Below are positions 1,393-20,077 of a stretch of 20,500 nucleotides of DNA, piece by piece. Below the pieces are notes generated by a model. The model saw only the letters and a program-made list of their open reading frames with translations, was not told the origin of the DNA and did not search any database. Made by a program: the position numbers and the translations under genes. The DNA is from a virus. The DNA is taken from positions 1-20,500 of the IMG/VR virus record IMGVR_UViG_3300022659_000296; one strand, 5' to 3'. Every line of letters begins with the position of its first letter. The first letter of the stretch is position 1.

Positions 1393-2238
1393 TTAATCTT
1401 TGTTAAGCCTGATTGTTAGCTCTCGAAGCTTTTCATAAGCGATACTATTTAGTTGCACATCTGCCTTAGTCCCCATTTTATTTACTCTCATTCCGCCACC
1501 TGTACGTCTTTTCATATTTATTTGACCTAATTGATTTACACCTTCTTTAAGAATAATTTTTAACAAACCAATCGCGTCATCGTCGATTTTTCTGAATTTA
1601 AACCATTTAGCTAATTTGGTTAACTTATAACTCTTTGCTTCTTCAATAGTTTTGAATGGACACTCTTTACCTTTAAGCGTTATTTCGTAACGTGCTCTGT
1701 GTAATTCTTTTGGCAGGTCTTCATTTTTATCAGTTGTCTTATAATAAATTCGCTGACTAATGTCCTCACTATTCTGACTTCCAACGTAAAGAGTATGTCC
1801 ATCCAATATTTTTCTACTTAATGCTTTTAATCTTGGTGGCGCACTAGCAGAGCCTTTAGAGATTCCTGCAACACGTTTATTGTTACTACACGGCTTTGAA
1901 AGACTCCAATAAAAATTAGCTGTCTTGTCTAGTATGCTGTCCTTATTCTGGCTTTTTGAATAAGCATCAAACGATATTTCTACTCCGGTGAATATGAATG
2001 AAGTTATTTGATATTGCGCATTAATCTTATTATAGATTCTCTCAAGCTGAGACCATGATGCAACATCATACATCCTAAATTTAAATGTATTTGTAGCTCC
2101 ACTTGAGCCCGCGTCAATTGGCTCGACATAATTCAAATCAAACAAGCGCCTAAGAGTCATGAAATTTGTGTTTTTTGTTAATGTGATTTCAATTTTTATC
2201 CAATCAATAACAGCTTTGTACTTAAACTCATCCATCAT
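1393..2238 (-). CDS. Putative replication initiation protein (Rep_trans-like)
   Basis: A 281-residue protein whose layout resembles replication initiation factors of small plasmids and phage-like elements (Rep_trans / RstA type). Those proteins nick the origin for rolling-circle replication. The supporting signs are an opening VIDWIKIEITL segment (family pattern D-W/Y-hydrophobic), a central LYVGSQNSEDISQRIYYK stretch matching the usual 'Y-x-G-S-x-x-S-x-x-x-x-R-I-Y-x-K' signature, and then an ARYEITLKG strand that follows it in these families. The C-terminal third is basic and may bind DNA. The start is ATG at 2238, with AAGGAA a few bases upstream; a second ATG follows directly. It is transcribed divergently from the serine recombinase at 2437, a pairing seen on small mobile elements. 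I assign it by motif pattern only. A relaxase or an unrelated phage protein remains possible. Confidence 0.5.
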   Translation of the reverse strand: MMDEFKYKAVIDWIKIEITLTKNTNFMTLRRLFDLNYVEPIDAGSSGATNTFKFRMYDVASWSQLERIYNKINAQYQITSFIFTGVEISFDAYSKSQNKDSILDKTANFYWSLSKPCSNNKRVAGISKGSASAPPRLKALSRKILDGHTLYVGSQNSEDISQRIYYKTTDKNEDLPKELHRARYEITLKGKECPFKTIEEAKSYKLTKLAKWFKFRKIDDDAIGLLKIILKEGVNQLGQINMKRRTGGGMRVNKMGTKADVQLNSIAYEKLRELTIRLNKD

Positions 2239-2436: not shown

Positions 2437-3105
2437 ATGGATAGTAAAAAATATGTTGCTTATTATCGAGTCAGTACTCAAAAACAAGGATTAAGTGGAC
2501 TAGGATTAGAAGCGCAGGAGAATGCAGTTATAAACCACCTCAAGAACATCAATTCTGAGCTCTTGGCATCGTTTACAGAGATTGAAACGGGAAAAGGCGC
2601 TAACGCATTAGAAAAGCGTCCACAGCTTTGCAAAGCGATTGAGCTCTGCCGTAAACTAGATGCTTATTTGATTATTGCTAAGTTAGATAGGCTAGCACGT
2701 AATGTTCACTTTGTATCAGGACTTATTGAGACAGGTTGTGACTTCATTGCGGCTGACATGCCACAAGCAAACAAAGTAATGATTCAAATGCATGCCGTAA
2801 TGTCAGAATGGGAACGTGACCAAATTAGTTGTAGAACTAAAGCTGCTTTACAAGCCGCAAAGGCACGCGGAGTTAAATTGGGTCAAATGGGAATCAATAA
2901 TCTAAAAAGCAATATAGTCTTACGACAATTAGATTCCAAATTATTTTCAGAAAAATTAAAAGGCCAAGTTGAAGGTTTTAAGCTTCGAGGTTTAACTCAG
3001 CGCAACATGGTGAAAGAGCTCAATAATGTAGGAATAACTACAATTAAAGGTGGCAAATGGACGTTAAACCAATTACAAAGATTACTTAAAACCCTAGCAA
3101 TATAA
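2437..3105 (+). CDS. Serine recombinase (resolvase/invertase family)
   Basis: A 222-residue small serine recombinase. Residues 5-145 form the resolvase catalytic domain: YYRVST with the nucleophile Ser13, the GLGLEAQ segment, the conserved AKLDRLARN motif (active-site Asp and Arg), and the long E-helix region ending in AARGVKLG-like sequence (AKARGVKLG). Residues about 170-220 form the C-terminal DNA-binding part, with RGLTQRNMVKELNNVGI followed by KGGKWTLNQLQRLL, a helix-turn-helix of the type used to choose sites. It would cut and rejoin DNA at short crossover sites, for inversion, resolution or integration. The start is ATG at 2437 with AGGAGA eight bases upstream. Its partner site may be the inverted repeat at 2399-2414. 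A decayed copy of its 3' end lies at 4359-4457. It appears intact. Confidence 0.9.
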   Translation: MDSKKYVAYYRVSTQKQGLSGLGLEAQENAVINHLKNINSELLASFTEIETGKGANALEKRPQLCKAIELCRKLDAYLIIAKLDRLARNVHFVSGLIETGCDFIAADMPQANKVMIQMHAVMSEWERDQISCRTKAALQAAKARGVKLGQMGINNLKSNIVLRQLDSKLFSEKLKGQVEGFKLRGLTQRNMVKELNNVGITTIKGGKWTLNQLQRLLKTLAI

Positions 3106-3399: not shown

Positions 3400-4323
3400 A
3401 TGCTTCCTTCTGATACGCAATCCTTTGAACTACTAGTATCCAAACCAAGATTAGACAGCTATCGCAATTACTTCAAGACAGTCACACCTTTAGAAACAAT
3501 AGGGTTTTATATGTGGAATTGCGACCTTAGTATCAATCTTAATGTGTTACTAGGATATTTAGAGATAGCACTAAGGAATAACACTCATAGGAGTTTATCT
3601 AACTTCACATCTAAAGGGTCAACTAATAGTAGCCATTGGTATGATAGCAGTCGTATAAACCTTTCTGCTGACAATCAAAGAAAAATTGATGATACTAGAA
3701 AAGATAAAAAAACTGGTCAGCCTCTAAAGCCTGCACCAAATCCAGATGAGATTATTTCAAGATTATCTTTTGGATTTTGGCCTAATTTGCTAAACCAGTT
3801 GGACAGAAGATACACTGACATTACTCTTACGGCCATATTTCCAAACCATCAATACAGTGCAAATCCTTCAAATTGGAAGGTTGGTGCCAATGTGAAATCA
3901 GCAATTGCCGAATTGTTTGAAATCAATAAGCTTCGTAATAGAGTTGCACATCACGAATCAGTATGGAAGTTTGGTTCTATTATCAATACTTCTGTCCAAC
4001 CTAACATTATTGTTGAGCCTGCTTCCAGTAATTTGAACGAGAGTATTCATAGATTTAATAGATTTCTTACTCAATATGATAATGTTCTTCAATCATTAAA
4101 TTTGGATTTGCACAATGATTTATTTAACTCAAGCTGGAGAAAGAGAATTGAGTATTTGATTTCCCCAAAAGGGATTCAAAGATATCAAACAGCAAAAAAC
4201 AGAATAGCTCCTGTTGCAATCACATCAACACATTTTCATGACAATTTTATTGCTTTCGCACAAGATAACCAGCCAATTGTTATTCATCAAAATGGCGAGT
4301 CAGGTTTGTTCCATCCATTATAA
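3400..4323 (+). CDS. Abi-family protein with HEPN-type motif
   Basis: A 307-residue protein matching the Abi-like family (Abi_2 type) of abortive-infection genes. The N-terminal part has the family pattern: an early 'R-L-x-x-Y' helix (KPRLDSYRNYF), a Y-x-W-N segment near residue 38, and YLEIALRN near 53-60. Later come the SFGFWPNLL stretch (about 123-131) and the HEPN-type catalytic motif R179-N-R-V-A-H184 (RN-x3-H). HEPN proteins of this kind are usually RNases that shut down translation when a phage infects; the role here is inferred from the family. The C-terminal 110 residues have no signature I recognise. The gene has its own promoter (3355-3383) and is separated by a terminator from the recombinase. 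No antitoxin gene is adjacent, so it would have to be self-controlled or triggered by infection. Confidence 0.82.
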   Translation: MLPSDTQSFELLVSKPRLDSYRNYFKTVTPLETIGFYMWNCDLSINLNVLLGYLEIALRNNTHRSLSNFTSKGSTNSSHWYDSSRINLSADNQRKIDDTRKDKKTGQPLKPAPNPDEIISRLSFGFWPNLLNQLDRRYTDITLTAIFPNHQYSANPSNWKVGANVKSAIAELFEINKLRNRVAHHESVWKFGSIINTSVQPNIIVEPASSNLNESIHRFNRFLTQYDNVLQSLNLDLHNDLFNSSWRKRIEYLISPKGIQRYQTAKNRIAPVAITSTHFHDNFIAFAQDNQPIVIHQNGESGLFHPL

Positions 4324-4358
4324 AAAAATCTAAATACGACGCCTTCTAGCCCCGATGT

Positions 4359-4457
4359 AATATTGCTGATGCAGCCGCAAAAAATAAACTATTTATTTCT
4401 GCGGCTAGAGGTGGGAATAGGACATTAAATCAGCTACAAAGAGTAATTATTATTTAA
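4359..4457 (+). pseudogene. Remnant of a serine recombinase 3' end
   Basis: In one plus-strand frame this stretch reads A-D-A-A-A-K then RGGNRTLNQLQR before a stop at 4455-4457. It matches the last part of the recombinase at 2437-3105, whose end reads KGGKWTLNQLQR; the DNA is similar too. The middle of the C-terminal domain is missing and no start codon is attached. It is therefore a decayed fragment of a related recombinase, lying just after the Abi gene. The Abi gene is thus bracketed by one intact recombinase gene and one broken copy. Confidence 0.45.
4373..4406. repeat. Long imperfect hairpin in recombinase remnant
   Basis: AGCCGCA pairs with TGCGGCT and AAATAAA pairs with TTTATTT, giving 14 base pairs with a small AA/C internal loop and a 3-base apex. 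There is no T stretch after it, so it is a poor terminator. It could be a recombination or binding site, or a chance product of the decayed gene. Confidence 0.45.
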
Positions 4458-4477
4458 TATTACAAAATTTTGGTAGA

Positions 4478-4483
4478 TATAAT
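4478..4483 (+). promoter_or_regulatory. Candidate -10 box for the 4530-6688 operon
   Basis: A perfect TATAAT lies 46 bases before the start of the membrane-protein gene. I do not see a convincing -35 box at 16-18 bases (TTTAAT occurs at 19-base spacing). Confidence 0.35.
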
Positions 4484-4529
4484 ATAGTCTGAACTAACTT
4501 AGGTGTCCCATCATTCAGGAAGCTTACAC

Positions 4530-5079
4530 ATGAAAGCTATGGTAATAATTTTCTATATATTATTAGGTATCTCTAATGCTAATGCCGATTTACAACAAGA
4601 CAAATATAACAACAAAAAATAGAAGTAATACGAGAAAAAGAATCTATAACGGTTGATTACCTTTATAAAATTGATGCTCTAGTGGAGAAAAGTAATCAGT
4701 TAGAAATTAAACAAAAAGAATTAGAAATACAGCTTGTAAAATTAGCAAGTACTTCTGTATCTAATATTGATGTCGATGAAAAAAAGATATAGATTTTGAA
4801 GTTTGGATGGGCTTACTTTTAGCTTGTGTTGCGATAGTTGTAACTGGTTTAGGTGTTGTAATTGCTTTGTTAGCTTTGTGGGGTTATAGAAATATTAAGA
4901 AAAAAGCCACTAAAGAAGTTTTAAAACAATCAGACAAACAAATCAAAGAAGCTATTAAATCTGGTCACTTTGATGTCTTGATAGCCACAGAAGTGGACCG
5001 TGCAATTTATAGAGGTATTATGTCAGATAGCGATTTCCCATCGACCGAATCAGAAGGAGAAACCCATGAGCCGCAGTAA
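4530..5079 (+). CDS. Coiled-coil membrane protein (two apparent frameshifts)
   Basis: Read through two single-base losses, in the A runs at 4614-4619 and 4779-4785, this is one protein of about 183 residues. It has a signal peptide ending in SNANA, a Glu/Lys/Leu-rich coiled coil (about 30-75), a transmembrane helix in WMGLLLACVAIVVTGLGV and the residues after it, then a basic cytoplasmic tail containing VDRAIYRGI. This layout (periplasmic coiled coil, one membrane helix, tail ending near an RxIYRGI-like motif) recurs in proteins encoded directly before ImmA/IrrE peptidases. A CAGGAAG box precedes the ATG at 4530. The 3' end overlaps the ImmA gene by 14 bases, so translation is probably coupled. 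As written only 4807-5079 is open in the third frame. Substrate for ImmA, sensor or toxin are all possible roles; function is unknown. The second site reads A AAA AAG, so ribosomal slippage there cannot be fully excluded. Confidence 0.6.
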
Positions 5080-5575
5080 AGAATGGGACTCTGTCCCTGA
5101 AGAACAAAGAGAAATAATTTTAAAACATCAAAGTTCTTTTCCCATTAAAGTTGGAGCAATTGCTAAGGATTTGGGTCTGGACGTTAAGAGCTCAACCCTC
5201 AAAGCTGGTATTTCTGGAGAAATAAAAGAGGTTGAAGGAACAGTATTTATTAAAATTAGCAGGCACGACTCTAAAGAGAGACAACGATTTACATTGGCAC
5301 ATGAGATTGCTCATTTTTTACTGCACAAAGACAAGTTAAGCGAAGGTATAGAGGATACAGTTTTGTTTCGTTCCAATTTATCAGACAAGCTAGAAGTCGA
5401 GGCTAACAAACTGGCTGCGGATATAGTAATGCCACTTTCTCTGATTAATGCGATAGACTTTCCAAATGACACAAAGTTTGAAGTAAAGGTTGAACGAATA
5501 GCGAATTTAGCACAGCTATCAATACCAGCTATTGAAATACGTTTAGGCAAAAAAGGTTTTAATTATGTTCGATGA
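5066..5575 (+). CDS. ImmA/IrrE-family metallopeptidase
   Basis: A 169-residue zinc peptidase. The HEXXH motif is H79-E-I-A-H83 in RFTLAHEIAHFLLH, and the third ligand is probably Glu112 in VEANKLAADIVMP, the usual family ending of the active site. Members cut a partner protein, typically a phage-type repressor (ImmA) or a stress regulator (IrrE). The start at 5066 is chosen over the longer frame from 5000 because GAAGGAGA sits just upstream and the family domain begins soon after. The longer start would overlap the membrane-protein gene by 80 bases. No Xre-type repressor gene lies next to it, which is unusual. Its neighbours are instead the membrane protein upstream and the Beta-family gene downstream (11-base overlap), so its substrate may be one of them. 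Confidence 0.88.
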   Translation: MSRSKEWDSVPEEQREIILKHQSSFPIKVGAIAKDLGLDVKSSTLKAGISGEIKEVEGTVFIKISRHDSKERQRFTLAHEIAHFLLHKDKLSEGIEDTVLFRSNLSDKLEVEANKLAADIVMPLSLINAIDFPNDTKFEVKVERIANLAQLSIPAIEIRLGKKGFNYVR

Positions 5576-6688
5576 AAATTTCCCATATAAATATTGCCCT
5601 ATTTTATCAATTAGCCCTTCAGAAATTACAGGCTTAAAAGAGCTTCCAGAAAAAGATAAAGATTTAATTTTACCCATATTTCCTATCAAGTCATGGGCAA
5701 CCTCGAAAAAACTCACAGATGCAATAGCTAAAGTAGAGTCTGCAATCGGAAAAAATAGAAAATGGATTGCAGATATTGACCATGAAGAGCTATTAAACCG
5801 TTCACTAGATAAATTTCGAGACGTTCATAAAGAAATAAAAAGACTGACTATACCGGACAATGGTTATAAATACTGGTGTGATTTTATTGTAGAAAACCCC
5901 AACACTATACCTTGCTTACAGCTGAAAGTATTAACTGAACTACAAACCCAAATTAAAGTATTAAGTTCATTAAATAGAGGAATTGTAATAATACTACGAA
6001 GGTCTGATATTGAATCTCAAGCTTATATGGAAATTCTAACTCAGCTCAGACAAACAGATAATTTACTTATACTACTGGATTTGGAACAAATTACTAACGA
6101 ACAAGTTGGTTTGCACGAGCAAATTAAACTGTATTTAATAGCTATAAAACAAATACTCCCAAATGCATTGGTTTCACTTTCATCTACTTCCTTCCCAGAT
6201 AGCTTTGGTGGTTATTACAAAGGAACAAAAAATATTTACGAAAGAAGACTATATGAGATATTAAAAGCGGATGTAGATGACCTTATATACTCTGACAGAG
6301 GTGGGGCACGAGCAACAAATCTGTCTGGCGGCGGCGGAACCCCGCCCCCAAGGATTGATTATGCATGTAGAAATGAGTGGAACTTCATACGAATGGAGCT
6401 TGAAAGCACTTCAGGCAATTCAGATGAAGAACTTAGATTAGCTGCAAAAAGTAAAAAAAGGAGTTATACACTCAAATTTCAAAAGAAATTATGAGAGAGC
6501 AGTATTGGGAGTCAAATCTTAAGTTGTGGGCTAACAACATTATTGAACTCACAAGTGTAGGAGATGACTTTGGAATAAACAGCGCTCAAAAGGCTACAGC
6601 AGTAAGAATAAATAAGCATTTGTATACCCAGTTGCATTATAACTCTATAGATTTCAACGAGGATACCGATGAGGATTGGGAGGACTAA
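5565..6688 (+). CDS. Beta-family protein (T4 beta / sce7725-like), one apparent frameshift
   Basis: Read through one missing base in the A run 6453-6459, this is a single protein of about 374 residues. The N-terminus (YKYCPILSISPSEITGLKEL, then ILPIFPI) fits the Beta_protein family (PF14350) named after a phage T4 protein: an opening 'Y-x-P-I-L', a Glu and Leu pair, and a hydrophobic 'I-x-P-I' strand. The C-terminal part after the break holds the W...IxxH segment (VRINKHLYTQL) expected at the end of this family. Without the added base the gene would end at 6494 with an unnatural basic tail, and a separate 65-residue frame would begin at 6491. The fold resembles a TIM-barrel-like family; biochemical activity is not established. 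The start overlaps the ImmA gene by 11 bases. The 3' end overlaps the convergent sce7726-type gene by 4 bases. Confidence 0.7.
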
Positions 6689-7458
6689 ATCAGTTGAGCA
6701 GTCTTTGTTTCAGAATCAACAAATTTAGTTAAATCTGCAATATGTTTATCAATATTCAGCCAAAATTGATTACTTTGCATTTCCTCTAACTTATTCTTTT
6801 CTCGCTGTGCACTAAATCTACTTAGAAGCCTCAAGTCATCTTTTGAAATGATTTTATTAACTGTTTCTTCGACAAACTTAAGATTACTTTCTCGAAATTT
6901 TCTACTAAGAGTTTGTTGAACTCCTAATCTCAAACTTTCATTTGCTACATTAGCTAGCGAGTCTTTCAAAGCATTTCTGTTTTTTATGAACGGAATTTTC
7001 AAATTTGAAGCTAATTTTGCTAGGTCTACTACATCCATATAGTCGATTAATTGACTACTCTCAATCCTGTCACTACAAGTACCTTTACTCTTTATTTTAA
7101 TTTCAGACTTGTTTATTTCCCATAAACCTACAGACTTTGGTAATTTGTGTGTAATTTTAGAAATAAACTTAGTATCGGATGCAACTATTACCATGTCGAA
7201 ATATTTCAAATAAGTGTGAACTTGTTCCTCCAGTCTATATAAGCTATCTGCTTCGCTCTTAATTTCAAAAGCAATCAATTTACCTTTTGTTAGGATTGCA
7301 AGATCCACTCTTTTTAAATAGTTACCAACAGTCAACTCACTCATAATAATTGAGTCTTGGTTGATGATTTTCATGTCTCTCAAATAGTTTAAAGTTAATG
7401 CCTTAATGTCACCTTCAAGCATCCTATTACTATCTTTACTTGCATCCATTTTTGCCAT
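6685..7458 (-). CDS. sce7726-family protein, PD-(D/E)xK nuclease-like
   Basis: A 257-residue protein. Residues 35-95 match the sce7726 family pattern: an early Glu (E41), RVDLAIL with D52, AFEIKSEADSLYRLEEQV with E65 and K67, then a hydrophobic strand (FDMVIVAS). D52 and E65-x-K67 form the D...(E)xK core of the restriction-endonuclease-like fold; Q79 is also placed as in that family. A Trp-containing GLWEI strand follows. The C-terminal half is helical and basic. In this family the gene often occurs with a Beta-type (sce7725) gene, and here it converges on one with a 4-base overlap of the ends, which supports a functional link. DNA or RNA cleavage is inferred from the motif only. It starts 60 bases beyond the integrase stop on the same strand. 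Confidence 0.75.
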   Translation of the reverse strand: MAKMDASKDSNRMLEGDIKALTLNYLRDMKIINQDSIIMSELTVGNYLKRVDLAILTKGKLIAFEIKSEADSLYRLEEQVHTYLKYFDMVIVASDTKFISKITHKLPKSVGLWEINKSEIKIKSKGTCSDRIESSQLIDYMDVVDLAKLASNLKIPFIKNRNALKDSLANVANESLRLGVQQTLSRKFRESNLKFVEETVNKIISKDDLRLLSRFSAQREKNKLEEMQSNQFWLNIDKHIADLTKFVDSETKTAQLI

Positions 7459-7518
7459 AAATTTTTCTATTAAATAATAGTGTATATTTAATATTTATAT
7501 TCTTCTTTAAATACCACT

Positions 7519-9294
7519 TCAGTTGAGGCTACGCCGGTTGTTATGCGTTTTGTCGTTTGATTTAACTTTATTTAAGATTTCATGAAAATCTAGCGTATTA
7601 ATAACCTCGACCAGATTACCAAGCTTAAATGACTTTCCATACCTACCAAAAGTTTCACTCTCATCTTCATGCCCAACTAGCGCGGCAATTTTTGCTTTAG
7701 AAACGTCATTTTGTTTTAACTGATTAATAAAAGTATGTCTAAATGAGTGAAAACCTTTCCACTCTCAACTATTCCACATTTTTCTCTATATCTAGCAAAC
7801 CACTTAGATGCCGCCTGACCATAGCCATCCCTGCCCTCCTTGAGTTCAGGGAATAACCTTAATTCATTTCGACCTCTGAGTTTATTTACATAATTTAAAA
7901 TGCCAAGTCTAAGAAGCTCTGAATGAAGAGGAATTTCCCTGAATGCAGCTTTAGATTTTATTCTTTTTCCTGGCATATCGTCATTTATTTTTATGACATC
8001 AACTCCATCAATTATAACGAAATCTTTCAAATGTAGTTGGCAGAGCTCATTTAACCGAGCACCTGTGCATAGAGCAAGTAATGGCAACCAATAGTAATGT
8101 GGATGTCTGTATTTTTTTCAACAAATACCTCTGAGCTAAACAATTTTATTAAATCATGATTTGAGAATACTTGTCTTTCATCACGAGCTAATTTTGGACT
8201 CCTAATGGTCATACCTTTTGCAGGATTTAAAGAGGTATAACCATGCTGTATAGCCCATTCAAACAAAGAAGAGACTCTAGCTAATTTTTTGTTAATAGTA
8301 TGACTAGCAGCTGGCTTTTCATTTAATTTTAAAATTTCATCAAATGATTTACTTCTAAATTTTGGTGACTTATTAATATTTGGAGGAAGTTTAAGTAGCA
8401 AAGCTCTGTATTCGCGGTGTTGTTCAAAACCATATTCAATGATTGGCCTATCTCCTACTATCCTAAGCCACATTCCAAATATTTCATTTACTGTATCTTC
8501 CGTTTTTGCAGTCCATTTTCCTTCCGCCTTTTGATTATTTGAATACTCTCGTATAACAGTGCTTATAAGCACTTGAAACTGATTTATATTAGCTTGGTTA
8601 GGCTTTATATTTGGCGAGGTTGCAGACGCCCTGCTGAGTACGTCTGATGCAAATTGGGTTAGTTTTTCTTTATCAGAATTGAATTGATTTTGCAGTTCTT
8701 GTAAGTTGAGTTTACTCAGTTCAGAATGCATTTTAGACTGCATCTCAAGTGTTAATTGATTAATTTCTTCAGAAAGGTGCAGCTCTAAATTTTTTATTGG
8801 TGTAATTTCAGCATAGAAATCATTAGTGATTGAATCAATTTCCGCTTGGTTGCAATTTGAAAGCTTACTTTTAAACACTTCTAATAATAAATAAATTTGT
8901 TGCTTATAATCATTATCTTTTTTCTCAAATCAATTAAATTTGATATGTGATGTCTGTTATCACCTAAATCAAATTCATACAAATTTTCTAAAAAGTTAAT
9001 ATGATTGTTAAAATCTTGAATTTTTAAGGACTGAACTAGATCTAGCGCAGCTTTGTATTCATCCTCAAAATTTAGTGCCATACGTATTCTTCCGAAATGA
9101 AGATTAATTGATGCTGCTAATTTAAAAGCGTGTAATTTAGCTAACTCTCTATTTCTTGTTTTTAGTGAAATTCTATACTCACTTTGATTGAACAAAACTT
9201 TCAGACTCTTCGGGATAACAAGCCTGAAACCATACACGCCGTATCGGTTAATGTGAAGTCTGGATGAAAACTTTATAGTTGAGTAAGTTTTCAC
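7519..9294 (-). CDS. int: Tyrosine site-specific integrase (three apparent frameshifts)
   Basis: As written the gene is split into pieces, but three single-base additions (run at 8918-8923, near 8096, and at 7749) restore one protein of about 592 residues. The N-terminal 45 residues (RYGVYGFRLVIPKSL onward) fit a phage integrase arm-binding segment. The catalytic domain then has all the expected residues: Arg in TGARLNEL, Lys/beta-hairpin region IKSKAAFREIPLH, HSFRHTF (His-x-x-Arg), GHEDES, and the nucleophile Tyr in GRYGKSF. The middle region is an unusually long alpha-helical insert of over 100 residues with coiled-coil character. The start at 9294 is GTG with a weak GAGG upstream. It lies beside a tmRNA-end attachment sequence and reads away from it, the arrangement of ssrA-targeting integrases such as that of CP4-57. 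The three breaks look like sequence errors, not decay, because the residues around them fit the family exactly. Confidence 0.8.
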
Positions 9295-9315
9295 TGGGAC
9301 ACCTCATTGGGACAC
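9295..9315. repeat. Direct repeat TGGGACAC, candidate integrase arm sites
   Basis: TGGGACAC occurs at 9295-9302 and 9308-9315, 13 bases apart, directly before the integrase start. The core GGGACA appears a third time on the minus strand at 9415-9420, on the other side of the attachment core. Arm-type integrase sites typically flank the core in this way. Confidence 0.45.
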
Positions 9316-9330
9316 AGGCGAATCAGTGAA

Positions 9331-9336
9331 ATTATA
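9331..9336 (-). promoter_or_regulatory. Candidate -10 box for integrase
   Basis: A TATAAT on the minus strand, about 37 bases before the GTG start. The -35 region is poor (TTGATT at 19-base spacing) and overlaps the terminator hairpin at 9344-9367, so integrase expression may be weak or controlled. Confidence 0.35.
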
Positions 9337-9343
9337 TAACAAA

Positions 9344-9367
9344 AACCCACTGAAAAATCAATGGGTT
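9344..9367 (-). terminator. Rho-independent terminator after the ssrA end
   Basis: On the minus strand, AACCCATTG pairs with CAGTGGGTT (nine pairs, one G-U) around a short loop, followed by a run of T. It begins 11 bases after the CCA of the tmRNA-end sequence, the place where an ssrA terminator would be expected. Confidence 0.65.
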
Positions 9368-9377
9368 ATTTGTTAAT

Positions 9378-9405
9378 TGGTGGAGCTGGGGGGAATCGAA
9401 CCCGC
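9378..9405 (-). other. tmRNA (ssrA) 3'-end fragment, phage attachment core
   Basis: On the minus strand this reads GCGGG, then TTCGATT, then CCCCC, then CAGCTCCACCA. That is the T arm and 3' acceptor strand of a proteobacterial tmRNA including CCA. The T stem pairs at four of five positions, with one C-C mismatch on its 5' side, and no further tmRNA sequence lies upstream (9406 onward). It is therefore only the 3' end. Such fragments are the cores used by integrases that insert into ssrA. The mismatch suggests that the crossover lies at or after the T loop, with phage DNA to the right. It could be attR of a prophage, or attP of a circular genome. Confidence 0.72.
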
Positions 9406-9436
9406 ATACACCATTGTCCCTCTTGATTATAAAACA

Positions 9437-9458
9437 AATGCTGTCAAAATGCTGTCAA
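9437..9458. repeat. Perfect 11-base tandem repeat by the attachment core
   Basis: AATGCTGTCAA occurs twice head to tail (9437-9447 and 9448-9458), between the attachment core and the end of the late operon. Its place and size fit paired integrase arm sites or an excisionase site. On the minus strand it also contains two TTGACA-like hexamers, but their spacing to the nearby TATAAT (21 and 10 bases) is wrong for a standard promoter. Confidence 0.45.
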
Positions 9459-9477
9459 TTAAGGATTAAAATTTAAA

Positions 9478-10055
9478 TCACTTACACCCTACTTGCTCAC
9501 AAGCTGCGTCAGCCCATCCACGCAATCGGTTGTAATCAATTGTCGTGACTTGGCATGCACGTTCTAGCGTAGAATATCCTGCGTAACACTCTCGTTCACG
9601 TTCGGTAAGTCCGCTGGTATCGCTTCCAGTGTCGGACATTCCAAGGCGATAACGCTCGGCTTTGTCTGATTCAATCCGCACGCGCTCAATAAAATTATGC
9701 TTAGTGCTATCAATGCGTTTTTCATATAGATCCTTTAAGTTTTGAGTTTCTCGCTGGCGATCGAGATTTAACTTTGCGACTAATGCCAGGTGTTGCTTTT
9801 CACTTTCCTGCAGTGCTTTTTTGCAACCGCCAGCTTCACAGCATTTTCAGAAGTTCGTTTAATCATCTGTGCTTGCAATTCAGCTTTCATCGTGAGCAAT
9901 GCTAACTCAGCCGTATCAGCACGCTTCACCTCATTGCTGTATTGAGCGTAGCAATACCAAAGCACCAACAACGGCACGATAACGCGCCAGTGCTTGATTA
10001 TGAAAGCCAAAAAATTACTAGCGCCAAGCTTAATCAGTTGCCATGCTATCAACAT
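9478..10055 (-). CDS. Rz: Rz-like inner-membrane spanin (one apparent frameshift)
   Basis: With one base added in the T run 9817-9822 this is a protein of about 192 residues. It has an N-terminal membrane helix (about 15-40, HWRVIVPLLVLWYCYAQY), then a long charged helical region (about 45-130) that would span the periplasm as a coiled coil, and a Cys-containing C-terminus (ACEQVGC). This is the i-spanin that, with Rz1, fuses inner and outer membranes in the last step of host lysis. It is the last gene of the late operon, and its start overlaps the endolysin gene by 26 bases. As written it ends early at 9780, and the C-terminal part appears as a separate 67-residue frame. The gene for Rz1 nested inside at 9564-9725 strongly supports the call. 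The break site reads A AAA AAG, so slippage cannot be excluded, but a missing base is likelier. Confidence 0.8.
9564..9725 (-). CDS. Rz1: Rz1-like outer-membrane lipoprotein nested in Rz
   Basis: A 53-residue reading frame wholly inside Rz in another frame. It starts with a basic MKN, a hydrophobic stretch, and the lipobox LLSAC (Cys16). The mature part has five prolines (KPS, CPT, IPAD, LPN). AAGGAT sits about five bases before the ATG at 9725. A short signal, a lipobox and a small proline-containing tail, embedded in Rz, are the classic o-spanin features. It would sit in the outer membrane and bind the C-terminus of Rz. Confidence 0.85.
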   Translation of the reverse strand: MKNALIALSIILLSACGLNQTKPSVIALECPTLEAIPADLPNVNESVTQDILR

Positions 10056-10599
10056 ATAAATTCGCCTCCATCGGCATCATGCCGCTTTTAATCCAGTCAG
10101 CCACGGTGAAATTCGGACAATCTTTTATCCACTCATTACGTGTGATTTGGCCATCACCATTTAAGTCTGGTGAATAGTCACGATGCCCACGCACTTTAAT
10201 GCCCATATCGTTATAAGCGTTGATTGCACCTTCTGCAGTTGCATGTGGGCGGTTTTGAATAATGCTTGATAAGTTAATCACGCAAGTGCGTAAGCTTTCC
10301 CATTGCGCTTTGCTGTACTTATCCAGGCCGATTAAACAAATACCAATCGAGCGTGAGTTATTGCCTTGCACGTGCGCACCCACTTCTTCAAGCCCACGGC
10401 CAGTTTCAATATCGCCATTCACACAAATAATGTAGTGATAGCCAATGTGTTTAAGTGTTGGATTAAAATTGCGTGTAGCTTGCGTTGCACGTTTAAAGCC
10501 ACGTGCTTTGTGCATCGCATCAATGTCAGTCGCGCGAAAGTTCCTGCCGTTTGGTGTGGCAGCACAATGAATAATAATGTCGGTTATTTTGCGCTTCAT
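10030..10599 (-). CDS. Endolysin: N-acetylmuramoyl-L-alanine amidase (T7 lysozyme type)
   Basis: A 189-residue Amidase_2 protein that cuts the bond between muramic acid and the stem peptide in murein. The zinc ligands His11 (IIIHCA), His139 (GHRDYSPD) and Cys161 (KDCPNF) match T7 lysozyme; Lys159, two before the Cys, and a Tyr in GYHY (Tyr54) fit the other active-site residues. Between His139 and Cys161 is a clear EF-hand-type loop (D145-x-N-x-D-x-Q-x-x-x-x-E156), as in many phage amidases, which may bind calcium. No signal peptide is seen, so release depends on a holin. I chose the ATG at 10599, which overlaps the stop of the upstream gene as ATGA, rather than the TTG at 10611. Together with the genes around it this is a standard lysis cassette. 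Confidence 0.9.
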   Translation of the reverse strand: MKRKITDIIIHCAATPNGRNFRATDIDAMHKARGFKRATQATRNFNPTLKHIGYHYIICVNGDIETGRGLEEVGAHVQGNNSRSIGICLIGLDKYSKAQWESLRTCVINLSSIIQNRPHATAEGAINAYNDMGIKVRGHRDYSPDLNGDGQITRNEWIKDCPNFTVADWIKSGMMPMEANLYVDSMATD

Positions 10600-10946
10600 T
10601 TTTTCAACCAATCATCAAAGTCACGCCACAAGCTTTTAAAGTAATCATTCACTAAGTAAACTTGATCATAAAACCATTCTCGCGCTCGATCTAAATCTGC
10701 GTGCGCCATGTATCTATCAAAGAAAAGCCAGAAGGTTAAGCCAAAAAATATGACAATCAGCGCAACTAGCCTATGCCATACTGGTGGCTCATAAACCACA
10801 CTGCAAACTAAACCACCTAATCCAATCACCATAATCACCATGCTATGCTTCATGCAGATGCACGTGGTTTTACCCATGTTGTTTGCGATGAATATGCACA
10901 TCCCCGCCAGCACCGCGCTTGATAGATAGAAAAAGTTTAATAACAT
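10596..10946 (-). CDS. Small membrane protein, holin candidate
   Basis: A 116-residue protein with about three transmembrane helices (about 3-22, 35-52 and 58-78) and a charged, aromatic C-terminal tail (REWFYD to DWLKK). Size, topology and position directly before the endolysin fit a holin or an accessory membrane protein of the lysis cassette. The stop overlaps the endolysin start by 4 bases (ATGA), and it follows the second membrane protein by 2 bases. I cannot assign it to a named holin family. It could instead be an antiholin. Confidence 0.6.
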   Translation of the reverse strand: MLLNFFYLSSAVLAGMCIFIANNMGKTTCICMKHSMVIMVIGLGGLVCSVVYEPPVWHRLVALIVIFFGLTFWLFFDRYMAHADLDRAREWFYDQVYLVNDYFKSLWRDFDDWLKK

Positions 10947-10948
10947 TT

Positions 10949-11326
10949 TTACTTACTCCCAAGCCATGCAATGCGTTTAAGTAAAGCAGGCATCAATACG
11001 TGGGCCACTAAACCAATCACAATCGCAATTAATGCAACCATTGGCTCTTGTGCCGTTTTTGCCCACTCGGTTAAAAAAGGTAAAAAGTTAATCACGGCAA
11101 GCAACACCGGCACGGCTGATAATTGAGAAACCATGCCACCTATTGCCGTGGATGCAATGACGTTTAAGAATGATTTATTGACTGGCATTTTTTCTTGATA
11201 GACCAATGCACATATTGAAAACACCGCAGTTAAAGCGAATGGCCAAAAGGTTATGCCTACCATTGTTGTCGCAATGGCAAGTGCAGGAATTGCAACTGTC
11301 GCTGCATCGTCAATCTGTGTAGTCAT
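10949..11326 (-). CDS. Phage holin-like membrane protein
   Basis: A 125-residue, strongly hydrophobic protein with three to four membrane helices (about 10-42, 55-85 and 92-115) and short charged ends (MTTQIDD at the start, KRIAWLGSK at the end). This is typical of phage holins, which form the hole that lets the endolysin reach the murein. It lies between the NlpC/P60 gene and the other small membrane protein. With two such proteins in a row, one is probably the holin and the other an antiholin or pinholin; the sequence does not say which. Confidence 0.65.
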   Translation of the reverse strand: MTTQIDDAATVAIPALAIATTMVGITFWPFALTAVFSICALVYQEKMPVNKSFLNVIASTAIGGMVSQLSAVPVLLAVINFLPFLTEWAKTAQEPMVALIAIVIGLVAHVLMPALLKRIAWLGSK

Positions 11327-11339
11327 TCTTCTAGCCTTT

Positions 11340-11783
11340 TCACTTAACTTTCACTTTTGGATAATTCAGCATGAGTAGATGCTGCGGTGTAATTCTGTGG
11401 TGGTATTTCAAGTCGTACGGCACATAACCACCCTGCACCATCACTGCATAAATAAACTCGGCACATGACCATTTCTCATGGGATTGCCAGTCTTGCATTA
11501 AGCCAATCCCGATTGCGCCAAACCAGTCGTAAGGCTTACCCATTTGCGCAATTATGAATACCATTGCATCAGTGTTTAATTCCACTGGAATTGTCACCAT
11601 CACCGCATCACTGGCTTTAGCTAATCGCTCACTTAACGGTGTTTTGCAGACACCTTCACCCGCGATTGCACCCACAACGGTTTCATCATCTAAGATAATA
11701 TCCACGTGGCTATAAACACTCCACGTCACAAAGCGGATGATCCAGCTGCCAATTGCACGTCTGCGGGTGAATAGTATTTTCAT
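11340..11783 (-). CDS. Permuted NlpC/P60 (YiiX-type) cysteine peptidase-like protein
   Basis: A 147-residue papain-like protein with the permuted order of the YiiX/LRAT-type NlpC/P60 group. The catalytic His comes first (YSHVDIIL, His27) and the Cys later (WSCAEFIY, about residue 107), with GKPYDWFGAIG (about 82-92) before it as in the family. Members cleave peptide or acyl bonds. Encoded between tail-fibre and holin genes, it probably cuts murein peptides during infection or lysis, or assists tail penetration. No signal peptide is seen. The ATG at 11783 follows the fibre gene by 6 bases. Confidence 0.75.
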   Translation of the reverse strand: MKILFTRRRAIGSWIIRFVTWSVYSHVDIILDDETVVGAIAGEGVCKTPLSERLAKASDAVMVTIPVELNTDAMVFIIAQMGKPYDWFGAIGIGLMQDWQSHEKWSCAEFIYAVMVQGGYVPYDLKYHHRITPQHLLMLNYPKVKVK

Positions 11784-11789
11784 GGTGTG

Positions 11790-12440
11790 TTACCAGGTAA
11801 TGGCTGCCACTTGCTCTGGCGTTGTTGCTGCATTTAACTGCGCCTTTAAACCTTCGCTTTTAGCAAAGTTGGCTTGGCCTTGTGCAATCATGCTGTCAAA
11901 AAAAGCATTCCAAGTTACAACGTCTGGAATAGAAACAATGCTGTTATCCACTGCTTTCCAGCCACCAACCCAATTTGGCGGCATTTCACCGCGTGTGGCC
12001 ACATAACCATTGATGCCGTCAATATCACTACGGCTTAATGGGTCGCAGGCAATCACTTTACCGTTATGGGTAAAGGTGGTTTGGTTGGCAGTTAAACGTG
12101 CTTGGTTGATTTCTGCATTCTTAGCGGCTTTTAAATCCTCTAATTTTGCTGGAGGGGCAATTTCACCAAAATACTCAACATCATCTTCTGGATTAATCCC
12201 GATTTCTGTAATGTCAATTTTGGAACCATCATTCTGATAATAAGACGTACCTCTAAAATCAGAAGTAATTGTCCATACGCCATTATCAAAAATAGCCACT
12301 TCATTAATACCGACTACTGGTGGCTCAACATTGGTCGAGTTTGCAGGAATAAGCCAATTGTTAGCGTCAAGCGGGTCTTGGTCTGCTAGCCCTTCGCCTA
12401 AAAATTCTTTAGTGATTGGGTGATAGTGATAGATTTTCAT
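11790..12440 (-). CDS. Tail fibre protein with DUF4376-like C-terminus
   Basis: A 216-residue protein. The N-terminal third (YHYHPITKEFLGEGLADQDPLD) is typical of short fibre or fibre-assembly proteins that begin by describing a sugar-like 'x-P-x-T-x-x-x-x-G' strand. Residues about 105-216, including KNAEINQARLTANQTTFTHN and WNAFFDSMI, resemble the DUF4376 domain found in tail-fibre and fibre-assembly proteins. It probably joins or chaperones the adhesin encoded just upstream at 12449-13585 (8-base gap). Exact role is uncertain. Confidence 0.7.
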   Translation of the reverse strand: MKIYHYHPITKEFLGEGLADQDPLDANNWLIPANSTNVEPPVVGINEVAIFDNGVWTITSDFRGTSYYQNDGSKIDITEIGINPEDDVEYFGEIAPPAKLEDLKAAKNAEINQARLTANQTTFTHNGKVIACDPLSRSDIDGINGYVATRGEMPPNWVGGWKAVDNSIVSIPDVVTWNAFFDSMIAQGQANFAKSEGLKAQLNAATTPEQVAAITW

Positions 12441-12448
12441 GGTTAATC

Positions 12449-13585
12449 CTAGAATTTAATACAAGCTAATAAAGCAACGTTGCGCGGGCGAGTTTCAGGC
12501 CCACCAGTGTCCGCAGTTTGATAAGTTGTCGAAGCGCCGTTAAATGTGCCAATGCCTGCGCCAGTTGTATTCGAACTTACAGAACCTTGATTTGGCATTG
12601 TGTGCTGATGGCTTTTTAATTCATCAGCTTGAGCCGAACCAAAAGCTCTCCCACTATCCGCACCGCGCCCGTCATCCCATCCGCGAATAAACTCGCCGCG
12701 CAGGTCGGGTAATCCGAACGTTGTCGAACCATCGCCAGCGCCAAACATAGTGCCAATTTCTGCAAATAACGCCGCGTATGTTGTGCGCGATACTAGAGCA
12801 CCGTTTGCTTTAAGCCAGCCTGTCGGTGGAGTATTCTTAGCAAAATATTGAACAGCACCCGCACTTAAAGATAAAACAGCGGCACCACTTTTCTTCTGAA
12901 TAACCACATCAAACGTATCAATATCAACCGCAGTAATCTCAACTCTGTCACCCGCTTCAACGGTGTAATTAGCACTGCCCTGTACGCGGATATCAGCATT
13001 GTTGGTAAATATTGTTCCCGCAGCAGGGTAAACAACACGACTAGCACCAGCCTGTGGCGCAGCAGGAAAGTTGGTGATAGTTGGTGTGCCTGTCCAGTCT
13101 TGTACGTTGCCGTTTACAGCGGTCCACAAAGGCGTGGTGGTTGCTGTTGCGGCTACTGTGGCGCGTTTTTCGTTGATTGCGGCTTGCAGGTTGCCATTAA
13201 GCGTTGTTGATATAATTTGCCAGTTTGAAAATGTGCCCGTACCAACAATCGTGCTTGGGCTAAACTCAAAATCACCAGTTACATCATCGTAATCAACAAC
13301 TGAAGCAATAAAATATTGGTTGATGTTGGCAGCATTTGTAACCCGCACGCCAGAGCCAGCAGGGAATACTTTCCCAGGCTCAATCTCTATGGTTTTATTG
13401 CCTGGCGTTAAGCTGATGCTGCTTGATGACGAAGCCACCATGCCAGGAAAGAAAACGCTTAATTTCTGAAAATAAGGAATTAAACTATCGTATTGAAAAT
13501 TAATAAAAGCCTGACTTGGAACGTCAAAATTATCTGGGTCCGCAATATTTGGCCTTGGCTGTGGAGCTGATTCTAAGTTGTCCAT
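12449..13585 (-). CDS. Tail fibre with phage collar domain
   Basis: A 378-residue receptor-binding or tail-fibre protein. The first 60 residues form an attachment region, about 60-230 is a beta-rich, Thr/Ala-rich shaft, and 240-310 is the phage tail collar domain (PF07484 type) with the usual signatures PTGWLKANGALVSRTTYAALF, then GDGSTTFGLPDLRGEFIRGWD. The end contains HQHTMP and TRPRNVALLACIKF, the standard finish of collar-domain fibres, where His-rich sites can bind metal. It likely contacts the host surface. It follows the tail protein at 13611-14512 after 25 bases. I see no reverse transcriptase, template repeat or other sign of tip variation machinery. Confidence 0.85.
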   Translation of the reverse strand: MDNLESAPQPRPNIADPDNFDVPSQAFINFQYDSLIPYFQKLSVFFPGMVASSSSSISLTPGNKTIEIEPGKVFPAGSGVRVTNAANINQYFIASVVDYDDVTGDFEFSPSTIVGTGTFSNWQIISTTLNGNLQAAINEKRATVAATATTTPLWTAVNGNVQDWTGTPTITNFPAAPQAGASRVVYPAAGTIFTNNADIRVQGSANYTVEAGDRVEITAVDIDTFDVVIQKKSGAAVLSLSAGAVQYFAKNTPPTGWLKANGALVSRTTYAALFAEIGTMFGAGDGSTTFGLPDLRGEFIRGWDDGRGADSGRAFGSAQADELKSHQHTMPNQGSVSSNTTGAGIGTFNGASTTYQTADTGGPETRPRNVALLACIKF

Positions 13586-13610
13586 AATTACACTTCTCTC
13601 AATAAAAGTT

Positions 13611-14512
13611 TTACTTTTGTTTTTTAGGGTTGGCAGCGTTAATCACAAATTCATCAGCAATGCCATGCAATACAAACGCTGGGAAGAAGCCATCGTCATC
13701 ATCGTCAACAGTTGCCCAAATAGATGGAACGCCGTCTATTTCTTCGCTCAAGTTATATAAATATTCAGTAAGCGATTTAGGTGATTCAACTGTTTGGCGG
13801 GTTGTCTTTTTGGACGGACGCTTAACTAAGCGCGTAAAGCCAAATTCGTTTGGCTCAGTTTTGCTAAATGATCTACGCTCAACCTCTGCGCCAAATTCAG
13901 CATTCCCAATAAACGTACTTATTCCTAATGCTAATATGCCCAAACGCACCTCACCCGCTGACGATCTGCGAAGTGTGACGGTGATTTTTGCACCAATAAT
14001 CGGCGGCAAATTTCTGATAAACAGATTTTTTTAACCTGAAATGGCTTAGTCCAAAACTCTAAGAACCCACGTGTTACACGGGTGACCATTCGGATAGACT
14101 GATCGTAAATTACAGTGTCGTTAAACTCGACTTTTACATCAACAAACTGTGCATCTGCATTTAGAATTGAAACCGTATCTACACGTGACGATGTAATCAT
14201 CACGTAAGTCATATTCATTTCTGCAACGGCTTGATTATTACGTTGGCCATCAAATGGCATCCAGCGATTTGTCGCGCTTACTTCTTGCCACCATACTGGC
14301 GGGTTATTTTCATCAAACTGGGTGTCGTCTAACGGATTGTTACCAGTATTGCCTGCTTGAACAGACTGAAAAACCTTATGCACTGAAAGCACAATGACAT
14401 ACTGATTCAAGTCATAAGTTGCCATAGGGTCATAAACTGGATGATCCGTTTCTGGAATAGTTGAGCTTTGCAAAACAGCATCCGTCATTGGCGTAATTTT
14501 TAAATGCCTCAT
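13611..14512 (-). CDS. Tail tip/baseplate-like protein (one apparent frameshift)
   Basis: With one base added in the T run 14026-14032 this is one protein of about 300 residues; as written it appears as two overlapping frames. The N-terminal part (residues about 25-60) has the pattern of a carbohydrate-binding-type module (YDLNQYVIV, then VFQSVQAGNTGNNP, then WWQEV), as in many tail adhesins. The middle is beta-rich, and the C-terminal region has an acidic stretch (VDDDDDG). Its position just after the tape measure (4-base ATGA-type overlap with it) suggests a tail-tip protein, perhaps replacing the usual set of four or five tip genes. I do not recognise a named family. Confidence 0.6.
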
Positions 14513-17500
14513 GCCGCCTCCACCGTTAAAATTGCATCGCCATTTTCAATATTTGCAGTGCTTTTTGCAGTGCGCTCAGTGAACTGCACAACATCAGCAA
14601 GCTGTGTGCTTAATTTATCTACTGTGCGGTTAAGCCTGCGGACTTCAGCAACTAATGAAGCGTTGTTACTGCCACCATCACCAGATAGCATGCGTTTTGT
14701 TTGCTCGGCTGAATAAATGCGTGATGCACCTGTCGCTTCAATCTCTGGTCCACGCTCGCCAACTAAGCGTAAGCCACCGCTGTGATAACCACCATCAGCA
14801 AAGGCTGGCATATTGGCAGCAGGTAGCATATTGAGCGCTATGCCATTACGGGCGAATGATGAGGCTTTGATGAAGTCGTTAAATGTTTTAAAGCGGTCTG
14901 GGTTAAGTGTGTTGGTAAGTGCCTGCACAGCACCGTTAACTTCAATAAAGCCAGCAACTAAATTAGGGAATGCATTGGCAAGGTTTAAGCCTTCTTTTGT
15001 AATGTCATTAAAATCAATTTCTTTACCTAATTTAATAAATTCCTGTGCATTTTTAGGCACAGCCAAACCAAATTCTGCAAACATTTTGGCAAGGTCTTCT
15101 TGCTGCATGGCACGTTTTTCAGCATCGCTAACAAGTGAATATAAACCTGTACGCACGTTATTTTGCAAACCAACCAATAAGCCATCAAATTGCTTAAATG
15201 CATTACGGCTATCAAGTAATTTAAGAAATTCTGCGCGGCCTTCTGCTGTTGTAGTATTTACATCACGTAAAGCTTGGTCATAAGCTTTTAGGCTGTTTGG
15301 TAATGCAATACCAATTGCCTCCATAATGTCGCCTTTTAGGTTTACCATTGCATCACCTATTGTTAAGGCTTCATTTGCTGCACCTAAAAGAATATCAGTC
15401 AGTTTAGTAAAGTTTTCACCTGCAATTCCCGTCTCTTTGGCAAGTAGTGCAACTTGAGAAACAGTAATATCAAATGACTGGCTTAGTACTTCTGATGATT
15501 GTCCTAAGCGCATCACATCATTAACTAATGTTGCAACTTCTTCACGTCCAGTAAGGCCAGTAAATAAATCTTTGATTGCAACATCTAAGGGAGAAGCCTT
15601 AATTGCTCGTACTAAGCCTTCACCAAACACTTTATTAACAAGTGCTTGATATACAGCATCCATACTGGCTTTTTTAAGTACAACATCAATTCTGCCTATA
15701 TCAACTCCATCAACTGTTGCGCCAAAAATACCGCCAGATTTTTTAGACTTGCCTCGTTGATAAAGACCACTATAAGTACCAATATTTGCAGACTCTCCAA
15801 ATGCGCCAAGTAGACCCTGCAAGGTGTTGCTAAACTGTTTATTAATATCATTTAGCGCATCACCACCGCCTAAACTACGGTCATATATAATGCCTTGGGC
15901 GGTTTGTGCATATTCGCTGCCTGCTCCTTGAAACCCGCTAACAGTTGTGCCAAAGCGCTTATAAGATTTACCCCCAAATAATCCACCAATAGCACTACCT
16001 AAGAATGAACCGATTGCGCCACCTACTGGACCACCAAAGAATGTGCCAAGCGCTGTGCCCGCTGCGCCTGCAAAGTTGCCTTGCGCAAGTTGTAAAACAG
16101 CGCCGCCATAACTAGCTAAGTTCCCAATGGTTGTTGCGTTCTGCTGAATAAAGCCACCAATAGCGCCGCGAATGCCGCTTAGATCGCCTGATATTAACTT
16201 GCCAAAACTGGCAATACCGTCGTAAACAACTTGGTTGGATTTTGTAAAAATATTGCCAACTTCTTGTAGTAATCCACCTGCAGTTGTACCACTGCCAGCA
16301 CCACCTGTGCCGTTAAGTAATTGAGAGACAGATTTGATGTCACCAAGCCCAGTAATCCCTGCAACGCTTGCAATTAATTTAACAACAAATGGCTGTGCAA
16401 AATAGCGATATAACTGATCAGCAACAGTAGTTTTAAAAGTAGTGTTAAGCGATTGCATAAACGCTTTCCAACTACCTTCACCACCATTAATCAATTGTGA
16501 AAAGCTAAATCTAAATGTTTCGTTAATGCCATCAACGCTACGCTCAAATTCACGGCGCTTTTGTTCTTCAGCTTGTTGCCAAATGCGCACAGCTTCGTCT
16601 GCTGCTTTTTTCTCAGCATCTAAACGCTCTTTATTAAGCGTTACATTTACAAGCTGTTTGCGGGCTTCAATTTCTTTATTAATGTCGTCAGTAGTTAAAC
16701 CTAAGTTTTCAAGCACAATACGTTTTTCTTCAGCACGCGCAAGCGCAGTCGCAGCAATTTGCGACTCTAATAACCCATATTCATTGATTTCGTTTTGTGT
16801 GGCTTCGGTGCGATTTAAAATGTCTTGCAAAATGCCAGTTTGCAGATTTTGTTGTGAAGCAATATAAGCATCTTCTGCACGAATTTCTTCTGCTCGCGCC
16901 ACGTTCTGTTTAACGATTTCTTGGTTAACGCGCTCGTAATAAGCGAGCATCGCTTTTTTAGATTCACTTAAGGCGGTAGATTTTGTCGTGCTTTTTTCAT
17001 ACTCAGCATTTAACTGCTGGCGATAGCGCGTTGCTTCTTGTACTGTTAGTCCGCCGTTTTGCTCAAGAATGTTTACTTCTTGAAGTTTAGTTTGGTAAGC
17101 CTGCAGTTTTGCCAAGTCATCTTTAAATGGGTTGGCTTGTTTAAATATTTCAGCCTTCTTTTCTGATAATTTTCTTGCAGCGTCAAAGTCAAACCTACCT
17201 ATCTTGCCAGATTGTTCGTTTTGAATTCCGCCATTTGGAGTGCTTGGAAAATACCTTTCTAGAGCGACCATCCCAACTGGTGAAATAGCAAATCCAACTT
17301 TGTCTAATAAACTGTATTCTTCACGTTTTTGAATTAAACGATTTAAAGCATCAGTCCATTGGACAAGCTCACCAGTAGACTGTGCTGAAGCTTCAAATAA
17401 ATCATTGAAACTATTAGCAAGCGCTTTTAATGCACCGCCTAAGGTATTGCGGGCAGCTTCAGCTGCCCCACCGTATGAGCCTTCCAAGGTTTTGATAATA

Positions 17501-18093: not shown

Positions 18094-18421
18094 TATTTAC
18101 TCTCGCTTGCCTTTTTTTGATTGTGAAAATTTAAAAACGCTTTATCTAAAGCACGAATCATTTTTGGAAATATTGAATATCGTCAATTTGGTTGATTAAG
18201 CAATACGCTAAAATCTCTAAGTAACTAATTGCCAAATGCTCTGATAAACCTATTTGGCGCGTTGCGTTTAATTCCCAAAATGCAAACCAGTAATCAAGGT
18301 TTTCTTGCTCTATTTCTGGTACTTCGTAACCGCTATCGCTTAAATCTGCACCGTATTCAATGTAAATTTTGTACTGCTCGCCATACTTCAAATCCCAAAG
18401 TAGGCGATCTGTTAGTTTTTT
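18093..18421 (-). CDS. Tail chaperone GT extension (T part)
   Basis: The T segment is reached from G by a -1 shift at 18415-18421. It reads LTDRLLWDLKYG, is acidic in the middle, and carries helical, Trp-rich sequence (DYWFAFWELN). As written it stops at 18158. Adding one base in the T run 18161-18165 continues the frame through MIRALDKAF to a stop at 18093-18095, overlapping the tape-measure start as TAATG, for 107 residues. GT proteins coat the tape measure during tail assembly. T has no start of its own apart from a TTG at 18391, which I think is not used. Confidence 0.72.
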
Positions 18422-18806
18422 ATGGCTGCAGCCTCAACCTCAACTTGAAAGTTTTTAATATCACCTGCAACAAAAGTAACCATGTCTTTGAAATCGCTGT
18501 ACTCAGTCATCAATCGAATGGCTTCTGCTTTTGAATACACAATTTTTTGCCATCAACCTCTAAGCCTTCCCATCCCAAAAGCACTGTTTCTGCAAATGCT
18601 TCAATGGTGATTTTTTCTTGTATATCGTCTGGCAGGTTACGGTTGCGAAGCTTAATTTGGTGTGGCTGAAGTAAGCGTTTAAATGAATTGCTAAAGTTAG
18701 TATTACCAAGACGTGCAACTAACAATTTGCCGCCAGCGCCTACATCAACCCAAACGCCTTCTTGCTCAGCAATTTTGTTGGTACCAAATACTTTTTTAAT
18801 GTCCAT
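18412..18806 (-). CDS. Tail assembly chaperone G (one apparent frameshift)
   Basis: A protein of about 131 residues, after adding one base in the T run 18543-18548. Before the break it has an N-terminal beta-rich domain (KLLVARLGNTNF) and a Leu-rich helix with LLGWEGL; after it comes IVYSKAEAIRLMTEY, the usual chaperone pattern 'W-E-G ... Y-S-x-x-x-A-x-x-L/M'. Without the added base the gene would end early at 18510 and this family block would be lost. G binds the tape measure during tail assembly. The stop at 18412 lies directly after the slippery heptamer. The ATG at 18806 follows the tail tube gene after 92 noncoding bases. Confidence 0.78.
18415..18421 (-). promoter_or_regulatory. Slippery heptamer A AAA AAC for -1 frameshift
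   Basis: In the G frame the codons read ATA AAA AAC TAA, so the heptamer A AAA AAC lies immediately before the G stop codon. A -1 slip here continues in the T frame with CTA ACA GAT. This is the canonical site and position of the G/GT programmed frameshift that lets lambda-like phages make both chaperones in a fixed ratio. Confidence 0.8.
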
Positions 18807-18898
18807 CTTTGTAACTCCCGTTTAAATAAATCCCGTTGTGAAAGGTTGGCATCCAGCACGCGACGGGAGGCGCGGTTTAATTGCCAGACGCCAATTCG

Positions 18899-20066: not shown

Positions 20067-20077
20067 GTTGTTTTGCC

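Follow-up and report, generated by a model that had tools for sequence, protein, structure and literature searches.

What is catalogued as a single viral contig is most likely composite, with the end of a prophage abutting a separate mobile element. The record, IMGVR_UViG_3300022659_000296, is classed as linear in IMG/VR, and records of that class are often fragments; its entire 20,500 bases make up the window analyzed here. Within it lies a copy of the 3′ end of ssrA (hereafter the core), which is very probably a hybrid attachment site, the seam between two different elements standing in tandem at ssrA. The first-pass annotation had offered either a tandem array or attP. We favor the former on the basis of the arm-type repeats that flank the core, a matching prophage half on another viral contig (L207), and the oligonucleotide signature.

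The core runs from the T-loop to the CCA end of the tmRNA and stands without the tmRNA body, with phage genes to its right and an integrase to its left.

9378–9403, minus strand: copy of the ssrA 3′ end, GGGTTCGATTCCCCCCAGCTCCACCA, shared attachment core (26/26 identity to ARAGORN-confirmed tmRNA ends; tmRNA model)
9338–9368, minus strand: hairpin and T-run just downstream from the core, candidate replacement terminator for ssrA (read from the sequence)

The 26/26 match is to the ssrA 3′ ends of many Methylophilaceae, in genes that ARAGORN confirms as tmRNA. The Rfam tmRNA model aligns just its last part, to 9378, with 17.3 bits (E = 0.002 in the window scan and 4.9e-7 in an own-genome search). 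With the tmRNA body missing, the match does not reach the gathering threshold, and ARAGORN reports no tRNA or tmRNA gene in the window. These matches bear out the earlier placement of an ssrA 3′ end between the integrase and the last late gene. The core had been given as 28 bases, of which positions 9404–9405 must be given up: hosts with this 3′ end have GGACGG before GGGTTCG, versus GTATGC in the window, and a 29-mer with two bases beyond the core had zero matches in viral contigs or genome contigs, so the shared core is 26 bases long. An exact scan of bacterial genomes found the core in at least 120 places. Among the matches listed, most are tmRNA genes (Methylophilaceae, Burkholderiales, several Actinobacteria, and others) and a few are tRNA-Ala; in the Methylophilaceae set, the CCCCCC or CCCGCC form of the ssrA end occurs in 77 of 187 genomes. 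The record contains the core once, and no complete ssrA was found in it, so neither outer boundary is visible. Relatives have a hairpin at the position equivalent to that of the window, and the window hairpin is probably a substitute terminator for ssrA.

To the right of the core is a single late operon, read toward the core.

9478–20,500, minus strand: distal late operon of the right prophage (Pfam and PHROG matches)

It comprises a tail terminator, tail tube, tape measure, collar/tail fiber, C92-like peptidase, amidase, and, as the last late gene, a spanin-like gene that is split by a frameshift and ends at ∼9478. Homologous late modules occur in three genomes (G180, G055, and G177). A SNORD48 match at 16493–16550 (plus strand), inside the tape-measure gene, scores below the gathering threshold and was taken as chance.

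The left side is of a different character.

7519–9294, minus strand: tyrosine integrase with a DUF6538 N-terminus, in three frames (Pfam and PHROG matches to the pieces)
6685–7458, minus strand: sce7726 family protein, PADLOC “cll” (NF033832 over cut-off; PADLOC E 1e-40)
5565–6688, plus strand: Beta protein (PF14350), split by a frameshift at an A-run (Pfam 8.5e-35)
5000–5575, plus strand: ImmA/IrrE-like metalloprotease (PF06114 5e-17)
3400–4323, plus strand: Abi_2/PD-T4-5-like defense protein (PF07751 over cut-off; PADLOC PD-T4-5 3.6e-19)
2437–3105, plus strand: small serine recombinase (PF00239 1.7e-24)
1393–2238, minus strand: Rep_trans-like protein (PF02486 28.4 bits, just under the Pfam cut-off of 29.6)

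The integrase does start at 9294 and point left, away from the core, as had been claimed, but it occupies three frames rather than one ORF. The C-terminus of PADLOC “beta” was located in ORF 6491–6688. No conjugation gene was seen in the window, and no phage structural, primase, or repressor gene was recognized left of the core.

Some further features of this side may be recorded. The stretch adjoining the integrase (3400–7458) is a cluster of likely anti-phage genes (PD-T4-5-like Abi_2, ImmA, Beta, and sce7726), and ImmA and Beta, at 5000–6688, resemble parts of PD-Lambda-2. Positions 1–2238 encode, besides the Rep_trans-like protein, the phage-associated proteins phrog_1848 and phrog_37309, whose function is unassigned. 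A left-end protein (668–1087) was abandoned as a lead: viral contigs L127–L130 match it but nothing else in the window.

The genes for relatives of the left integrase lie immediately 3′ of a tRNA or tmRNA gene, on the same strand. The layout of the window fits this DUF6538 family, whose members lie just 3′ of a tDNA end, on the same strand and with arm repeats between (L133, L135, L137, L144, and L212); another relative, at L221, adjoins a tmRNA. For eight relatives both ends of the element could be located, 4–12 kb apart. These are islands whose cargo includes, for example, Vsr, cytosine methylase, UmuDC, and serine recombinases, and no phage was recognized among them. Relatives were absent from the viral contigs, at the sensitivity used, and from the phage collection. 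With its Abi_2/PD-T4-5, Beta, sce7726, and serine recombinase genes, the left half resembles these small cargo islands; genes similar to its serine recombinase are present in islands of G159 and G110.

The sharp change in AT content that had been reported at the core was readily reproduced: GC is 33.8% to the left and 43.1% to the right, and the step sits at the core. After GC correction, the tetranucleotide distance between the left and right halves is 0.375, versus 0.21–0.24 within halves. The sequence also contains about seven apparent frameshifts in 20 kb, spread over several sites in 4760–14015 and most at or near homopolymers; the genes affected are those for the integrase, Beta, a tail protein, the spanin, and a small membrane protein. 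Decay of the integrase was rejected as their main cause, given that the tail, spanin, and Beta genes are affected too and that most sites are at or near homopolymers. This location, the involvement of essential tail and lysis genes, and the intact tail gene of G180 and G055 (a single ORF in both) make these frameshifts look like sequencing errors, and they are probably errors of the source data rather than decay.

The first-pass annotation reasoned correctly that, in a single integrated element, the core cannot separate the integrase from the late genes. Gene order, however, does not discriminate here: late genes, then core, then integrase, all on one strand, is what either a tandem junction or attP would produce, and the choice between them was made on the flanks. 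Were the core an attP, from a single temperate phage in circular or packaged form, the left integrase and right late genes would be one genome and the left cargo its lysogeny/defense region. We at first preferred this reading from the layout of the G180 and G177 prophages, in which tRNA-Ser, integrase, early genes, late genes, and a repeat of the tRNA end follow one another, all in tRNA sense; circularized, such prophages would give late genes, core, and integrase on one strand. Phages carry defense cargo and AT-rich lysogeny regions, which also speaks for it. The reading was dropped on comparison of flank words and arm repeats, as described below.

The comparison depends on two pairs of short repeats, one on either side of the core.

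9438–9458, minus strand: late-side arm-type repeat pair, TTGACAGCATTTTGACAGCAT (G143/G144 pattern; 14-nt match to L207)
9295–9315, minus strand: integrase-side arm-type repeat pair, TGTCCC twice with 13-nt spacing (putative arm function)

The late-side pair, TTGACAGCATTTTGACAGCAT, stands 34 nt from the core. In both G143 and G144, an ssrA element carries a counterpart, TTGACAACATTTTGACAACAT, at a distance of 35 nt from its far core. The far-flank pattern merged from these two genomes, TTGACARCATTTTGACARCAT, has one exact match in the window, with 0 expected in shuffles; that is, an arm pair of TTGACARCAT twice, ∼35 nt from an ssrA core, is present in the right half of the window. When the viral contigs were searched for the arms plus core, no further record matched. 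The integrase of the G144 element faces ssrA, and its integrase-side and far-side flanks have TGACAACATTTT in common (12 nt, P 0.003). A repeat found at both ends of that element can be assigned to its convergent integrase. The integrase-side flank of L207 likewise shares with the late side of the window a direct 14-nt word, TTTTGACAGCATTT (P 0.0005), and a 12-nt inverted word (P 0.0025). The late-side arms, which match the flanks of G143/G144 and L207, would therefore belong to an integrase other than the left one.

The integrase-side pair has its parallels elsewhere. The closest relative of the left integrase (L212) has GGGACAC/GGTACAC upstream, at the position and with the 13-nt spacing of the TGTCCC pair, and other relatives have TGTTACAC pairs at the same position and spacing. 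A family-wide arm motif GGGACA was rejected, as most relatives carry TGTTACAC-like repeats. The TGTCCC pair has no counterpart on the late side, where a single inverted TGTCCC at 9415 might serve the left integrase as a weak arm site. From position and sharing, TTGACAGCAT is a candidate arm repeat of the L207-type integrase, and TGTCCC one of the left integrase.

The attP of the left integrase should show a word common to both flanks. In seven of the eight delimited relatives, an exact direct word of 9–13 nt occurs in the flank on the integrase side and again in the far one (TGTTACACTT, GTGTTACACCA twice, GTCTGTTAC, TTGTACAAA, AGTGAGCCACACA, and TGATACACTT; shuffle P 0–0.042). For the window, by contrast, the words common to both flanks have 6 nt (direct; P 0.98) and 7 nt (inverted; P 0.69), which is chance level, and the same arm-type motif was not found on both sides of its core. 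It should be noted that the test is not absolute, since one delimited relative (G058) lacks a shared flank word; two prophages with a P4-type integrase showed no shared flank motif either. Where outer boundaries are missing, comparing arm repeats across the core is a simple test of attP against tandem insertion, and it can be used on other contigs.

The phage to which the right half might belong is suggested by L207, a viral contig that holds the ssrA-proximal half of a tailed prophage, from its own integrase to the capsid. The order is ssrA, integrase, reverse transcriptase, CI-like repressor, primase, TerL, portal, protease, and capsid; the integrase is of the G143/G144 element type and lies beside a Methylophilaceae-type ssrA. 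Late genes are in ssrA sense, and the right half of the window carries on in that sense with tail, lysis, and core; the contig ends where the right half would continue. The GC-corrected tetranucleotide distance of the right half to L207 is 0.15–0.18 (0.13 for L207 to itself), versus 0.34–0.38 for the left half. There were zero matches between window proteins and those of L207, as expected of complementary halves, which is no confirmation of identity. The earlier suggestion that the late operon is of different origin from the integrase is supported by this signature and by the arm repeats that match another integrase type. With unrelated arm-repeat types and different signatures, the two sides of the core appear to belong to different elements. 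As a side observation, L207 has at 8684–11328 a reverse transcriptase beside a pair of paralogs that share a C-terminal motif; this is probably a diversity-generating retroelement of the ssrA prophage.

Taken with the flanks, these comparisons make attP unlikely. Late-side arms that match another integrase type, signatures that differ more than those of halves within a phage, the small islands formed by relatives of the integrase, and a left side devoid of recognized phage structural, primase, or repressor genes all weigh against it. What looks like a genuine attP is seen in L208, a 22-kb viral contig in which the ssrA core (2922–2947) also lies between an integrase and a tail gene (tail-fiber-like). 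This layout is a point in favor of attP for the window as well; in contrast to the window, GGTCGAC/GGTCAAC repeats flank the L208 core on both sides.

A junction of the proposed tandem form occurs on a 416-kb contig of G144, where the 33-kb ssrA element ends in a far core with a P4-type integrase gene directly behind it. In G143, a sensor-kinase gene, not an integrase gene, lies behind the far core of the same element. The G144 locus is like the window in having an element's far core, the same type of arm pair, and the integrase of the next element directly behind; it differs in that the first element has a relaxase-like gene and no tail genes, and in that the second integrase is P4-type. A search over 84 kb turned up no third core, and the second element of G144 may therefore be a remnant. 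This natural junction bears on whether the window is a chimeric assembly, in which two unlinked contigs ending at ssrA 3′ ends were joined at their common 26 bases. The core is short and found in many genomes and elements, and the frameshifts described above are a mark of imperfect sequence quality, both of which a chimera would suit. Against this, 26 bases is a short overlap for overlap assembly and nature has produced the same form in G144, and we regard a chimera as quite unlikely.

For the tandem reading, the proposed arrangement in ssrA sense is as follows. An L207-type tailed prophage would adjoin ssrA, with a convergent-type integrase at its ssrA-proximal end (beyond the window) and lysis genes at its distal end, and the ssrA 3′-end copy at that distal end would be the core in the window. 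Directly behind the core would follow the next element, with an unrelated tyrosine integrase, its own arm sites, a terminator, defense genes, and a serine recombinase, and a third core would be expected beyond the left end of the window. Each integration would restore ssrA and leave a core copy at the far end, and a second element could use either copy, resulting in element, core, element. With one and the same ssrA 3′ end serving both integrases, entry may have been via the attachment site of the other element or via the regenerated ssrA 3′ end. We infer the order of insertion of the two elements, as well as a Methylophilaceae-like host.

Tandem accretion at ssrA is already known, and the window adds a further case. 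In Dehalococcoides, several elements are stacked downstream from ssrA, set apart by direct repeats (∼20 bp) of its 3′ end; the islands have low GC, and crossover is in the T-loop region (PMC3146451). The window is like them in its stacking at ssrA, 3′-end repeats as separators, a low-GC island, and T-loop crossover. However, those islands have a serine recombinase and reductive dehalogenase cargo, whereas the window has tyrosine integrases, a tailed prophage, and a defense-gene element, in a host that we infer. In the accretion of ICEs, IMEs, and CIMEs, distantly related integrases of similar specificity put elements side by side, and the incoming element uses the att site of the resident (PMC5704250). 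The window shares such side-by-side placement through integrases of similar specificity; unlike those arrays, one partner is a prophage and no conjugation gene accompanies it. Islander-type tRNA/tmRNA islands have a tyrosine integrase by the tDNA 3′ end and a displaced 3′ fragment at the far end (PMC4383910), both of which have likenesses in the window, but the window has a single visible boundary that is common to two elements.

The PD-T4-5-like, Beta, sce7726, and integrase genes left of the core should not be credited to the phage. It might be asked whether the prophage and second element are now mobile as one, the prophage excising with its neighbor through the outer cores. Accretion and cis-mobilization of tandem elements are documented (PMC5704250, PMC3146451). 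The outer cores are absent from the record, which has no sign of excision or packaging, and such joint mobility seems highly improbable here. That prophage and defense element form a composite excised and packaged via the outer ssrA cores, the phage regularly spreading the defense island, is likewise very unlikely.

A candidate second precedent for tandem insertion, G126, was dropped, as its extra core is in ssrA sequence at a contig end. In that genome (L259, contig C150, 2610–2700), the 3′ end of a convergent-type integrase abuts a shortened ssrA 3′-end remnant, downstream from an ssrA with a P4-type integrase, and this is possibly another stacked ssrA locus.
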